Assembly (NCBI GenBank): GCA_900197625.1
Contig: FZLS01000001.1
Coordinates: forward strand, 1 to 64,000
Reading direction: 5' to 3'
DNA length: 64,000 bases
DNA from: Rhodobacteraceae bacterium Water-Bin34
GTDB taxonomy: Bacteria; Pseudomonadota; Alphaproteobacteria; Rhodobacterales; Rhodobacteraceae
Shown in pieces: positions 22,893 to 45,546 of the stretch. The notes beneath the pieces are model-generated. The model was not told the DNA's origin. It saw nothing but the letters and a program-made list of their open reading frames with translations, and did not search any database. Numbering within the stretch: the stretch's first letter is position 1; every line of letters begins with the position of its first letter. The translations under genes were made by a program, and so were the position numbers.

Positions 22893-23165
22893 TTAGATTT
22901 TGTTTAATTTAAAGTACTCTTTATTTATGTTAACGCCACGTTTGATAAGATGTTCAACACTACCTTTAGCAACTGCATTAATATCACCTCGGCAAAGGCC
23001 AATATCCGCTAAATCTTTATCTGTTAATTGCTTTAATTCATTTATTGTCTGACGATATTTTTTTTGGGTTTGTAATGATTTATTTAAATTTCCCCAAATT
23101 ACCGATAAACTTTCCAATGATGGAATTAACTGATTTAAATTTATTGTGCTTGATGCAAATGCCAT
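22893..23165 (-). CDS. DUF1127 (YjiS-like) small basic protein
   Basis: 90-residue protein whose C-terminal half carries the DUF1127 pattern ELKQLTDKDLADIGLCRGDI. Members are small, basic, often RNA-related proteins in alphaproteobacteria linked to phosphate, carbon or RNA metabolism; the exact role is unknown here. Start at the ATG 23165 with AAAGGAAAC upstream; a longer frame adds a poly-lysine/isoleucine leader unlikely to be coding. The N-terminal half (about 40 residues) is longer than in the shortest members. Confidence 0.75.
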   Translation of the reverse strand: MAFASSTINLNQLIPSLESLSVIWGNLNKSLQTQKKYRQTINELKQLTDKDLADIGLCRGDINAVAKGSVEHLIKRGVNINKEYFKLNKI

Positions 23166-23343
23166 CTTACCGTTTCCTTTATTATTATCTATTTTTTTTA
23201 TGATTATGATTTTTTTTTGGACCAAACAACAAACACCTTTGCAATTCCGCTATGCAAATTATGCAAACGTGAATTTAAAGTAATTTGAAAAAATTAATTT
23301 TATGATTTTGATTAAGCAATAATAAGTTTTAGTTATATCTTAA

Positions 23344-24215: not shown

Positions 24216-24224
24216 TGTTATGCT
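24216..24224 (+). promoter_or_regulatory. Extended -10 promoter for the ileS leader
   Basis: TG-T-TATGCT at 24216-24224 is an extended -10 element with no strong -35. It would start the transcript near 24231, about 29 bases before the isoleucine-rich leader frame. Confidence 0.5.
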
Positions 24225-24259
24225 AGACCTTTGCTTGCGTGCACATTATAAGCAATTTT

Positions 24260-24310
24260 ATGGAGCATATATTTAAAATAATTATTCGAATTATTAGCCC
24301 GGTGATCTGA
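24260..24310 (+). CDS. Isoleucine-rich leader peptide of ileS (16 aa)
   Basis: Reading frame ATG...TGA encoding MEHIFKIIIRIISPVI: seven of sixteen residues are isoleucine, read from ATA, ATT and ATC codons. It lies 84 bases upstream of isoleucyl-tRNA synthetase. Its last codons and stop form the 5' arm of a strong hairpin (24298-24327), the usual design of amino-acid attenuators in which ribosome stalling on cognate codons changes RNA folding. The ribosome site is weak; a GTG at 24239 in the same frame would add seven residues including two more Ile. PheM of the pheST operon is the classic synthetase precedent. Confidence 0.65.
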   Translation: MEHIFKIIIRIISPVI

Positions 24311-24387
24311 AAAAAAGATCTGCCGGGAGAAGTCGTTTGAGTATTCGCGCCGAACAAACCCCTACTGTAAATTTTCCATGACTGGAA
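24298..24387 (+). promoter_or_regulatory. Putative ileS attenuator: three stem-loops, last one over the Shine-Dalgarno
   Basis: Hairpin 1 (24298-24327): CCCGG/CCGGG and GATCT/AGATC around a GAAAAAA loop, overlapping the leader stop codon. Hairpin 2 (24335-24359): GTTTG/CAAAC plus TTCG/CGAA. Hairpin 3 (24374-24387): TTCCA/TGGAA, which buries the GGAA that serves the ileS ATG at 24394. The GGG of hairpin 1 could instead pair with the CCC after hairpin 2. No U-run follows any stem, so control would be at translation rather than by intrinsic termination. Confidence 0.55.
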
Positions 24388-24393
24388 CATGAT

Positions 24394-27282
24394 ATGAGTG
24401 CTGACACGCCTGATTATAAAGATACAATAAACTTACCAGTAACTGATTTCCCTATGAGGGCGGGTCTACCAGGACGTGAACCTATCTGGTTAGATCGTTG
24501 GGCGAAGATAGGTGTATATGAAAAGTTAAGAGAAAAAAAAGGTCGTGAATCATTTGTGTTACACGATGGTCCACCTTATGCGAATGGGCATCTCCATATT
24601 GGACACGCTTTAAATAAAATTTTGAAAGACATGGTTGTTAGATCACAACAAATGTTGGGAAAAGATGCTCGATACATACCTGGATGGGATTGTCATGGAT
24701 TGCCTATTGAATGGAAAATTGAAGAACAATACCGAAAAAAAGGAAAGAATAAAGATGATGTTCCTGTAGTTGAACTACGGCAAGAATGCAGAAAATTTGC
24801 AGAAGGTTGGGTCGATATTCAAAGAGAGGAATTTAAAAGATTAGGTATTACGGGCAAATGGGATAACCCATATTTAACAATGAATTTTCATGCAGAAGCA
24901 GTTATCGCTGACGAATTTATGAAATTTGCAATGAATGGTTCTCTATACCAAGGCTCAAAACCAGTTATGTGGTCACCAGTTGAGAAAACTGCACTCGCAG
25001 AAGCTGAAATAGAATATCACAATCACAAGTCGCATACAATTTGGGTTCCATTTAATTTTAAATCTGCATCAGATAAAATAAAAAATGCCAGAGTGGTAAT
25101 ATGGACAACAACTCCATGGACAATTCCCTCAAACAAGGCGGTCGCGTTTAATCCAAAAATTTCTTATGGCTTATATGAGGTCATAGAAACTGAAGAAGAA
25201 AGTTGGACAGCTCCTGGGCAACAATACATTTTTGCGGATGTTCTAGCTGAAGATACATTAACAAAATCTCGGGTACTTAAATTTAAGCGTGTTTCAGATG
25301 TGCTAGCTTCTGATTTAGAGAATGCTATTTGTTCACATCCACTTTCAGAAATGGACGAATATTGGTCTTATGATGTTCCAATGATTGATGGAGATCATGT
25401 TACAGATGAAGCTGGAACAGGATTTGTACATACAGCGCCTAGTCACGGTGCAGATGACTATGAATGTTTTGTCAAACGAAATTGGTTAGACAGAATGACA
25501 CATAATGTTGGTGAAGCATCACAGTTTTTAGATCATGTTCCTTTTTTTGCAGGATTAGAAGTATTCGATAGAAAAGGAAAAGAAGGAAAAGCAAATAATG
25601 CAGTAATTGCCAAACTAGTTGAAGCTGGCGGTATAATTGCAAGAGGGCGAGTTGAGCATAGTTATCCCCATTCATGGCGCTCTAAAGCCCCAATTATATT
25701 TAGAAATACACCACAGTGGTTTACTTCCATAGATAAAGAAATTGGTGGAAATAATCAGCATGGTAAGACTATCCGTGAACGTGCATTAACAGAAATTGAT
25801 AATGTAAAATGGACGCCTCAAACTGGTAGAAACCGTTTACACTCAATGATTGAAGCTCGGCCTGATTGGGTAATGTCTCGTCAACGTGCTTGGGGTGTTC
25901 CTTTAACCTGTTTTACTAGAAAAAACACTCTACCTACTGATCCAAATTTTATTTTGAAAGATGCTGAAGTCAATGATCGGATTGTGGCTGCATTTAAAAA
26001 AGAAAGTGCTGATTGTTGGTTTGAAAATGGGGCAAAAGAACGGTTTTTAGGGTCTAAATATAACTCTGAGGAATGGGACCAAGTTTTTGATGTTCTAGAC
26101 GTTTGGTTCGATAGTGGTTCAACACATGCTTTCGTAATGCGTGATCGAGAGGATGGAGCAGATGATGGTATTGCAGACTTATACTTAGAAGGCACAGATC
26201 AACATAGAGGGTGGTTCCATTCATCCTTGCTACAATCTTGTGGAACAAATGGTCGTGCACCATACAAAGGTGTACTAACCCATGGGTTTACGCTGGATGA
26301 AAAAGGCATGAAAATGTCAAAATCCGTAGGTAATACTATTGCTCCAGAACAAGTGATTAAACAATATGGGGCAGATATTCTGCGTTTATGGGTTGCACAA
26401 GCTGACTATACTGCAGATTTACGTATTGGCCCTGAAATATTAAAAAATGTTGCCGATAGTTATCGAAGACTTAGAAATACAATGAGATTTATTCTTGGGA
26501 ATCTGAACGATTTTAGTGAGTCAGAAAAAATTGAATATGCTGAAATGCCAGAACTTGAGCAATGGGTTTTACACCGACTAGCTGAATTGGATACAGTAGT
26601 TAGAGACGGTTATAGTGCGTATGATTTCCAGGGTGTTTTCAGCCAAGTTTTTCAGTTTGCAACAGTAGATCTTTCAAGTTTCTATTTTGATATAAGGAAA
26701 GATGTTCTTTATTGTGATGATGTAAATGGGACAAAGCGTAAAGCAGCTCGAACTGTTTTAGATATATTATTTTATAGATTAACAGCTTGGTTAGCACCAA
26801 TGCTATGTTTCACAATGGAAGACGTCTGGTTACAACGTAATCATGACAATGAAACTTCTATACATCTTGAAGATATTCCAGAGACACCATCAGATTGGTT
26901 AAATGTGAAATTAGCTTCAAAATGGGAAACTATCCGAAATGTAAGGCGTGTTGTGACCGGTGCAATTGAAGTAGAGCGCACAGCAAAGAATATAGGTTCA
27001 TCACTTGAAGCTGCTCCTGAGGTGTATTTCAACTCAAATATGAATTTAAAGAGCTTATCGGAAACTGTGGATTTTGCAGATATTTGTATCACATCGAATA
27101 TTAAATTGATTGATGAAAGCCCATCAGCCCAAGGCTTTAAGCTAGATGATATCCCTGATATTGAAGTAATCTTTAAGAAAGCGGATGGTGAAAAATGCAT
27201 GCGTTGTTGGAAGATTACTTCAGAAGTGGGAAAACAAAAACATGAAGGTTGCTGCCAACGTTGTAGTGATGCATTAGGTTAA
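24394..27282 (+). CDS. ileS: Isoleucyl-tRNA synthetase
   Basis: Class I synthetase of 962 residues that charges tRNA-Ile. The HIGH-type motif is in [15 protein letters not shown] near 60-74, an editing domain with WTTTPWT near 237 and [18 protein letters not shown] near 338, KMSKS in [12 protein letters not shown] near 638, and C-terminal zinc cysteines in CMRCWK and CCQRC. ATG at 24394 with GGAA six bases upstream. Full family length. A long structured leader with an Ile-rich frame precedes it; the DMT transporter gene follows after three bases. Confidence 0.97.
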
Positions 27283-44203: not shown

Positions 44204-45546
44204 GCTTTTGTTAGTTTTTCTAAGCAAAAAGCTAATGATTTACCTTTTGGAAGTTGGCAATATGAGGCATCATCTTTTCTAATTTTATTATTTATTTTCC
44301 CACCAATGATTATTGAAATTAAATTTGATGGGTCAGATAATGTTTTAACTGCTTTATTATTTAATAGGTCAGGAGATACGTCAAAACTTGCGTTTATTAA
44401 TTCTAGATTGATTGAAGTTTCAGGTGGCTGATCAGGGTGTAGTTCTAAATAGCGTTTTACTAACCAGTTAGGTTTTTTACGAAGATTTGTTATTAATTCA
44501 TTTATAACTATGTTGTGTGAGTTTTTTAAACCTTGACGTGTATTTAATCCCATTCTTGTATTGTTATAGATATCATACATCAGATTGTGGATTTCATCCC
44601 ATGTCTCTGAAGCAACTGTTGCGGAAAGCCCAGTAAATGCAAGTTTTTCGCTTATTTGATTAAAGTGTGACCGCGGGTCATAAGAAGCACGTTTTTCTTG
44701 CCGAATAATTCGAAACATTTCGGAGCCAGCCCCATAACCCATATATTTAAAGAGAGTGTTAGTCTCAGCTTGGTGTATCAGTGAATTAAAGCTTTGTACG
44801 GTACCAATAAAAATCAAAGTCTCAGTGGCTTCTTCGTCTTCTAAGTGAATAACTCCATGGGGAAGTTGATGAAAAGGCTTGTTAGCTTCATCGTTGAGAA
44901 TTGCATTATATGTTGGCAAGTCTTTTAATAAAATATTTGCGATGCCGTTAAATTCAAAATTTCTTGCATTAAATATTATTTGATTGGGCCTTCGAGATAT
45001 CTCTAAATTAATGCTGTCTTTTGATATTATTTCATCAGAACCTGTGAAAAGAACATAACTAATAAGTTCATTTTCAAGTAGTTCTGGTGTTCGGAGTTTA
45101 GTTGAGGAAATATTTCTGAATGAATAGTTTTTACGCTTGAGCCAAGTCTCATTAATCGCAGTATTTTTGAGTATTTCGTTTGTATGGCTAGCTGCCAAAG
45201 CAAAGCTTTCCTTTTGAGATTGTACAGTGAGAATTAAGTGATTTGGTGTAGCATCGATAGAAAAATTAATATCATTTATTATTCTAAAATCAATTATTTC
45301 ACGCACTGATTTTCTGCCAATAGGTCCATTAATTTTAGCAGCAAGAAAAGCTTGAAGTTTTCTATTTTGTTCTTTTGATTTAGAATTAAGTGTCCAAACT
45401 AAAGATGCGGATGCAATATCATCATCGAGGGTTGCAAACTCAGTAATATAAGAAATATCATCGTCAACTACGGTGTTAGCCAAGACTGAATGAGCTATAA
45501 AAAATACTCCAAAAATGAGAAAGTAAAATTTTTTATAAAAAATCAT
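44188..45546 (-). CDS. M16-like peptidase, inactive-type partner
   Basis: 452-residue exported protein: signal peptide about 1-23 (FGVFFIAHSVLA). The overall M16 architecture is recognisable, for example GYGAGSEMFRIIRQEKRASYDPRSHF (in part) and LSATVASETWDEI, but no HxxEH zinc motif is present. It is coupled by ATGA overlap to the upstream M16 gene, which has the motif, so the pair resembles the catalytic/non-catalytic heterodimers known in this family. Confidence 0.75.
   Translation of the reverse strand: MIFYKKFYFLIFGVFFIAHSVLANTVVDDDISYITEFATLDDDIASASLVWTLNSKSKEQNRKLQAFLAAKINGPIGRKSVREIIDFRIINDINFSIDATPNHLILTVQSQKESFALAASHTNEILKNTAINETWLKRKNYSFRNISSTKLRTPELLENELISYVLFTGSDEIISKDSINLEISRRPNQIIFNARNFEFNGIANILLKDLPTYNAILNDEANKPFHQLPHGVIHLEDEEATETLIFIGTVQSFNSLIHQAETNTLFKYMGYGAGSEMFRIIRQEKRASYDPRSHFNQISEKLAFTGLSATVASETWDEIHNLMYDIYNNTRMGLNTRQGLKNSHNIVINELITNLRKKPNWLVKRYLELHPDQPPETSINLELINASFDVSPDLLNNKAVKTLSDPSNLISIIIGGKINNKIRKDDASYCQLPKGKSLAFCLEKLTKAQDSR

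Follow-up and report, generated by a model that had tools for sequence, protein, structure and literature searches.

The stretch of DNA analysed here (the window: 64,000 nucleotides (nt) of contig FZLS01000001.1 from Rhodobacteraceae bacterium Water-Bin34) carries the isoleucyl-tRNA synthetase gene ileS (24394..27282, forward strand, as are all features below unless stated), and our subject is the region just upstream, which encodes a short leader peptide rich in isoleucine (Ile). The host genome is that of an Amylibacter-like member of the Rhodobacteraceae, and the nearest named relative among the loci compared is an uncultured Amylibacter, with an IleS identity of 92%. From 5' to 3', ileS is preceded by the leader frame (24260..24310), hairpin 1 over the stop codon of that frame, a weak hairpin 2, and a small hairpin over the ileS Shine-Dalgarno (SD) sequence. 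An earlier note made from the window's letters had read 24260-24310 as a 16-codon ATG frame with seven Ile codons, and this reading holds: the product is MEHIFKIIIRIISPVI*, with 7 Ile in 16 codons. Comparison with relatives indicates that this is a real, conserved leader-peptide element, mostly without a U-run terminator in Rhodobacteraceae, and on balance we favor the view that it controls ileS by sensing Ile-tRNA charging through the ribosome.

The leader frame was examined across related loci (80 named and 30 from a genus-level search), in which the ileS start could be placed in 109 of 111 (not in L049 or L111); 106 distinct upstreams resulted, and setting aside the incomplete L091 left 105. 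A frame with the core R-I-x-x-P was present in 103 of these 105 complete, distinct Rhodobacteraceae upstreams, with MERLFAIIIRIICPAL*, MQMIFAIIIRIISPAL* and MSHRAVIIIRIISPAL* being usual leader peptides. The 103 sequences, which include that of the window and are related rather than independent, were chosen by the presence of CGAATT, so its invariance inside the set is by construction and the fair figure is 103/105. In the Ile run, the three codons just 5' of CGA (24278..24286), Ile was found at 78, 84 and 80 of the 103 sequences, respectively. Codons starting with AT at these positions were ATT (124), ATC (87), ATA (31) and ATG (1), and this synonymous variation, with 242 Ile against one Met, argues that the run is selected as amino acid and not as bases. 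Leaders contained 1 to 7 Ile codons (one in 3, two in 9, and at least three in 91; n = 103) when starts were read by script, which in several leaders took a start 5' of the leaderless one described below. These data support an Ile-coding leader frame 5' of ileS that is apparently under selection for Ile.

Directly behind the Ile run lies the Arg-Ile codon pair plus one base, CGA-AUU-A (24287..24293), 4 nt 5' of hairpin 1. This distance to the CCCG stem was exactly 4 nt in 102/103 Rhodobacteraceae sequences, and codon four after CGA ATT was CCG in all 103. What comparison shows is a short leader open reading frame (ORF) with a conserved frame, whose Arg(CGA)-Ile(AUU) core stands at a fixed distance from a covarying hairpin and whose translation is probably leaderless.

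The evidence for a leaderless start comes from the promoter. The earlier note had placed an extended -10 promoter at 24216-24224; we rejected that site, as the elements conserved in relatives are instead a -35-like element, TAGACC (24224..24229; mostly TGGACG or TTTACC in relatives), whose columns were conserved when 102 upstreams were aligned (C94, T101, ... C90), and a -10 element, TATAAG (24247..24252), whose TATA was found in 101/102. The -35-like TAGACC/TGGACG and TATAAG are separated by 17 nt, and a further 7 nt lead to the leader ATG. A generic sigma-70 scan of the window detected neither this conserved promoter nor the one proposed earlier. Among relatives, the -10 element stood 6 or 7 nt from the in-frame start in 88/103 sequences and 5-10 nt from it in 102/103, and an SD-like word preceded the leader start in 23/103 compared to 80/103 for the ileS start. 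Since the TATAA box usually lies 6-7 nt 5' of the start codon, the leader is probably leaderless, with transcription starting at or adjoining 24260. Leaderless mRNAs are given as frequent in Caulobacter (375) in the portion of the ribosome-profiling study of that organism drawn on here (PMC4117421).

Hairpin 1 (24298..24327), a CCCGG-stemmed structure that overlaps the leader stop codon in most Rhodobacteraceae, has a folding free energy (dG) of -15.9 in the window and of -10 or lower in 97/103 sequences. The strong hairpin that the earlier note had drawn with the stop codon in its 5' arm is thus borne out as a strong stem overlapping the stop, except that in the minimum free energy (MFE) structure only the U of UGA belongs to the arm and the rest to the loop. 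Hairpin 2 (24332..24351), a second hairpin of that note, folds weakly in the window (dG -2.7) and is stronger in many relatives. Over all 103 sequences its margin over shuffles was modest: the median dG was -6.7 against -5.0 for shuffles, and a dG of -5 or lower was reached in 80 against 53 (shuffle means). Covariation was scored in an alignment of 63 of the 81 distinct leader stretches; the other 18, whose hairpin 2 resisted alignment, were excluded by eye, which makes the covariation and alternative-pairing figures favorable ones. Within it, both-side changes occurred at 4/10 pairs of hairpin 1 and 3/5 pairs of hairpin 2 (7/15 together), and 96.1% of cells were paired. None of 500 shuffles reached this level on four of five measures (3/500 did on the number of pair types), and sliding the hairpin partners lowered pairing to 34-50%. 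The compensatory changes in the stems anticipated by the earlier note are therefore present for hairpins 1 and 2 in these chosen sequences, and with the Ile-coding frame both expectations for relatives held, with exceptions in 2/105.

In the MFE structure of the window, hairpin 2 is displaced by a helix between 24283-24291, which takes in the run's final Ile codon, CGA and the beginning of AUU, and 24335-24343. By eye, the letters for this helix are confined to the closest relatives and a small number of further sequences. A 5-nt complement of CGAAUUA occurred downstream in 27/103 sequences against 9.2 expected; such pairing is perhaps real in a subset, and we rejected it as a general feature. 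A UG at 24338-24339, in the loop of hairpin 2 and ~11 nt past hairpin 1, was conserved in most Rhodobacteraceae (T86 and G92 of 102), and by eye was not kept in a few other families. A distance of ~11 nt past a hairpin is the spacing of hairpin-type polymerase pauses.

A covariance model of the element gave one strong match in the window (E 9.8e-16), which was expected by construction because the 63 training rows include that of the window (L082), and one in the window's genome. Over the phylum, it matched one locus per genome in 24/299 genomes (21 of 23 listed genomes from the same family, plus 3 further alphaproteobacteria); as the model was built from Rhodobacteraceae and strict filters were used, distant forms are under-reported. 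A weaker second match in the window (44655-44724, minus strand, E 0.1) is probably due to chance. Further upstream, a 110-residue frame (22893-23225, minus strand) has a C-terminal part that we take to resemble small DUF1127-type proteins.

Downstream of hairpin 2, a C-rich, G-poor stretch (24353..24379) leads up to the ileS SD, with C and G fractions of 0.349 and 0.127 over 94 relatives compared to 0.292 and 0.280, respectively, over 261 intergenic stretches used as controls. The third hairpin of the earlier note, proposed to pair with the SD, does touch the SD region in the window MFE (24374..24387); by eye, it is kept in nearest relatives only, and the SD lay inside some local hairpin in 43/103 sequences. 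As the earlier note had stated, there is no U-run at the leader, neither in the window nor in most relatives. The 8 nt after hairpin 1 contained zero or one T in 81/97 Rhodobacteraceae, the three windows considered after hairpin 2 each held at most 3 T in 73/79, and no terminator-like site was found in the window's stretch upstream of ileS. The hairpin with U-run that marks an intrinsic-terminator attenuator is absent from the window's ileS leader and from those of most of the Rhodobacteraceae.

We modelled how a translating ribosome would affect these structures by masking its footprint up to 11 nt past the first base of the A-site and folding the remainder, in the 86/103 sequences with a located CCCGG-type stem; the model contains folding and masking only, with no kinetics, polymerase or proteins. 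The median probability of hairpin 1, 0.95 in free RNA, was also 0.95 when a ribosome occupied the Ile run, and was 0.84 for a ribosome on CGA, 0.52 on AUU and 0.00 on the stop codon. By this model, a ribosome finishing the leader would therefore open the hairpin, one at the Ile run would leave it intact, and one at AUU would open it in part. The median accessibility of the ileS SD was 0.44-0.45 in all ribosome states, so in this model release of the SD is not supported as the output, and neither is the earlier proposal that stalling at Ile codons frees the ileS start, against which the SD's place in a local hairpin in only 43/103 sequences also speaks.

These results suggest how Ile-tRNA sensing by the ileS leader, which is likely from the sequence comparisons, could proceed. 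With ample charged tRNA-Ile, the ribosome would pass AUU into hairpin 1 and, as it terminates, open the stem; with little, it would stall on an Ile codon and hairpin 1 ahead of it would mostly stay folded. In Rhodobacteraceae, up to three more upstream Ile codons would strengthen the response. In the least certain step, ribosome position would then change whether RNA polymerase continues into ileS. Given the lack of a U-run in most of the Rhodobacteraceae and the C-rich, G-poor RNA that follows, our first guess for the output is Rho-assisted early termination, such that ileS would rise on starvation. We hold this guess to be possible rather than probable; the C-rich, G-poor stretch would be compatible with Rho, but also with an unstructured initiation region.

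The core of the element extends well beyond the family. The alphaproteobacterial set comprised the top 109 of 170 matching genomes by IleS score, of which one (L123) was too short, leaving 108 with upstreams of ~400-500 nt. CGAATTA was present in 45/108 of these upstreams, where a first-order Markov control predicts 2.5. Of the 45 copies, 39 had CCCGG after exactly 4 nt and the other 6 had no CCCGG. The 39 full-motif copies span 28 family labels (counted by hand). The Arg-Ile frame, which either has a start codon or runs in from upstream, was open in 39/39 full copies, compared to 4 and 6 of 39 for the remaining two frames, and its usual core is R-I-x-x-P-[A/V], as in MGDFRIPGAARIIGPALG*, MRSRAIRERISRPVR* and MAQRSAFAGMRIIGPAL*. 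In one of the 39 copies (L233, the same locus as L151), a gene for an ACT-like protein lies between the motif and ileS. In four upstreams (L126, L131, L138 and L188), CGAATTA, without CCCGG at 4 nt, stood in frame towards the end of a long open frame that enters from upstream and by eye resembles ribF; here, the leader looks as though it had merged into the upstream gene. The defining feature outside Rhodobacteraceae is one AUU after CGA, not Ile richness, and the Ile run is most readily understood as an elaboration, in Rhodobacteraceae, of the Arg-Ile and hairpin module.

We also scanned the class for CGAATTA-N3/4-CCCGG irrespective of the gene that follows, and found matches in 123/289 genomes; a reversed-pattern control appeared plainly rarer from its unsummed counts. 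Seventy loci were inspected, chosen and not a census: IleS followed at 18 (at one of these, L289, only after ~1.1 kb), an ACT-like protein at 27, an ACT-like protein and then IleS at 2 (L150 and L151), and neither at 23. As 40 loci had been picked to avoid known ileS sites, this ACT:IleS ratio is not representative. Among the 23 were the threonine ammonia-lyase, NTF2-like and kinase-like loci named below, as well as matches within coding genes that look like chance. At one locus (L143), a citramalate synthase (E 2.7e-50) starts 418 nt past the motif, behind the ACT gene, and once (L252) the motif precedes a threonine ammonia-lyase; these two assignments come from query fragments of 160 and 120 residues, respectively, both over the Pfam cut-offs of their broad families and under the NCBIfam full-length cut-offs. 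Both enzymes are part of isoleucine synthesis. Their occurrence behind the motif, seen once each, together with ileS is the main reason why we read the module as an isoleucine sensor. At four loci (L163, L164, L165 and L254, under one family label), a strong hairpin and the motif stand before an NTF2-like protein (DUF6841-like, under cut-off).

The ACT-like protein, of ~92-123 residues, is encoded directly behind a CGA-AUU leader at L142, L143, L145, L148, L150, L151, L153, L161, L166, L167 and other loci; 13 of the 29 ACT loci contributed sequence to the ACT profile and so match it by construction. At some of these loci, the leader frame appears to cross the start codon of the ACT gene. All Pfam and NCBIfam matches of the protein were under cut-off, and a PDB sequence search returned chance-level matches only (a ribosomal protein, E 0.33; the acetohydroxyacid synthase (AHAS) small subunit, E 0.68). 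Its predicted structure (pLDDT, the model's per-residue confidence, 87) had its best PDB match in a GTP pyrophosphokinase, at the ACT domain (E 6e-6), with IlvN second (E 1e-5, 22% identity) and other ACT-like folds such as NikR further down. The fold of the small protein, as predicted, is that of an ACT domain, and a link to AHAS is only suggestive.

We therefore place before the reader, as a tentative idea that may well prove wrong, a single module serving a class-wide alphaproteobacterial isoleucine regulon, in which CGA-AUU, set off from a hairpin by one base and 4 nt, would control ileS, the ACT-domain protein, threonine ammonia-lyase, and citramalate synthase behind the ACT gene. In such a regulon, a single Ile codon decoded at the foot of the stem would report Ile-tRNA charging, mostly with neither terminator nor antiterminator, and Rhodobacteraceae would have added the Ile run and the leaderless start.

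Several observations weigh against the element being a charging sensor of the proposed kind. Two complete Rhodobacteraceae upstreams lack an intact frame, L007 by eye having retained the hairpin and lost CGAATT and L013 holding a diverged version only, and 63/108 genomes of the class lack CGAATTA. A single Ile codon in 3/103 Rhodobacteraceae leaders, and one or two in many leaders of other families, make for a poor sensor of charging, and Ile sensing alone gives no account of why CGA-AUU-A is conserved as nucleotides. At ACT loci, the leader frame can extend past the hairpin, and some genes trailing the motif have no known Ile link (the NTF2-like genes, and by eye a kinase-like gene at L283). 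No classical switch was found among the 63 chosen sequences: the 3' arm of hairpin 1 could pair with the 5' arm of hairpin 2 (2:3), and the 5' arm of hairpin 1 with the 3' arm of hairpin 2 (1:4), in ~93% of cells, with no both-side changes, and for this want of covariation the antiterminator-like 2:3 and long-range 1:4 pairings were dropped. The modelled 2:3 pairing had a median of 0.00 in every ribosome state, and hairpin 2 was near constant across states (medians 0.29-0.43). Outside Rhodobacteraceae, the C-over-G bias was weak (mean 0.08 over 35 copies) and 7/35 copies had 5 T in the 8 nt past hairpin 1, so some of these may be ordinary terminators.

Two other explanations, each of which we judge unlikely, account for part of this evidence. 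Under translational control, the position of the leader ribosome would refold the RNA and so expose or hide the ileS SD. The SD-covering hairpin in the window and its nearest relatives is consistent with this, as is the lack of a U-run in most of the Rhodobacteraceae, and an apparent overlap of the leader frame with the beginning of the following gene, seen in some ACT loci, would permit translational coupling there. Against it stand the SD's uniform accessibility across modelled states, its local hairpin in a minority of sequences, and alternative pairings without covariation. The second explanation, a nascent-peptide or codon-pair arrest, holds that CGA-AUU with a stable hairpin at the mRNA entry always pauses the ribosome, so that the signal would not simply be Ile-tRNA. 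Here, CGA and AUU are fixed as codons while neighboring Ile codons vary synonymously (in the CGAATT-picked set, 103/105), and the 4 nt to the hairpin, kept in 102/103 sequences and 39/39 class copies with CCCGG, approximate the distance at which hairpins hinder translocation. Against an arrest of this type stand several downstream genes that point towards Ile metabolism, and selection on the Ile run of Rhodobacteraceae for the amino acid rather than for the nucleotides.

Control by mRNA processing, in which the ribosome shields or exposes an RNase E cut at GA|AUU by the hairpin and thereby sets the lifetime of ileS mRNA, appears very improbable. RNase E prefers RN|WUU, which GA|AUU matches, and the AU-rich core is conserved in GC-rich genomes 4 nt from a stable stem, but sites of RNase E tend to be loosely defined, and seven conserved bases in a fixed frame would be unexpected. 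A chance Ile-rich frame in AT-rich intergenic DNA, where ATT and ATA are frequent, would fit a window leader that folds barely better than shuffles (z -1.33; 24/200 fold equally well), and is ruled out by conservation of the same core in 103/105 relatives, GC-rich ones included, and by covariation.

With the sensor reading still the one we prefer, the element was compared to known systems. Classical leader-peptide attenuators include those of trp, his and ilv and of E. coli pheST. By its sequence, the ileS leader appears to be of this kind, with a short ORF in a conserved frame (103/105; 39/39 copies) and Ile codons at the control position, and it shares with them leader codons for the regulated amino acid and a ribosome position that hairpins would sense. 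It differs from them in mostly lacking a U-run terminator, in having no supported antiterminator, in being probably leaderless, and in carrying one obligatory Ile class-wide. Rfam gave no match at gathering level in the window, and over six loci (five with the motif, and L171 without) a single match up to E 1 (L119, 649-732, minus strand, E 0.28, far under cut-off), neither a T-box nor in the leader; by these searches, the element corresponds to no Rfam family, T-box riboswitches included. Translational T-boxes and leader peptides are described upstream of ileS in Actinobacteria in the consulted part of PMC1262725. Such T-boxes share with our element the control of ileS by tRNA-Ile charging through RNA; they bind tRNA directly and hide the SD, whereas the leader here has a conserved frame and belongs to no Rfam family.

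Closer at hand is uORFC-8-2, a conserved upstream ORF of cysS in Rhodobacterales, which from the main text of PMC8632094 likewise combines codons for the synthetase's own amino acid with two stems in the same order. It has tandem Cys codons and a U-run intrinsic terminator in place of the CGA-AUU core and the mostly missing U-run found here, and as the window leader has no Cys codon and no U-run and its gene is ileS, we excluded membership; the words 'ileS' and 'isoleucyl' do not occur in the main text of that paper. The earlier note's statement that no Ile attenuator of ileS had been described in alphaproteobacteria is nearly right: we found none in the open-access literature, supplements excluded, which is weak evidence of absence, yet an 'ileS leader CDS (CCNA_03934)' has been named in Caulobacter crescentus (Schrader 2014; PMC4117421). 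In the sections of that study considered, this small coding sequence (CDS) 5' of ileS in an alphaproteobacterium appears as a negative control and plasmid construct, without sequence, motif, structure or mechanism.

How alphaproteobacteria control their aminoacyl-tRNA synthetase genes has been little charted. If our reading is correct, CGAATTA-N4-CCCGG with an in-frame Arg-Ile would provide a short, searchable signature of isoleucine control across 28 family labels or more, and would direct attention to an Ile-linked family of ACT-domain proteins. It would also offer a simple system for how one codon and one hairpin sense tRNA charging without a U-run terminator.

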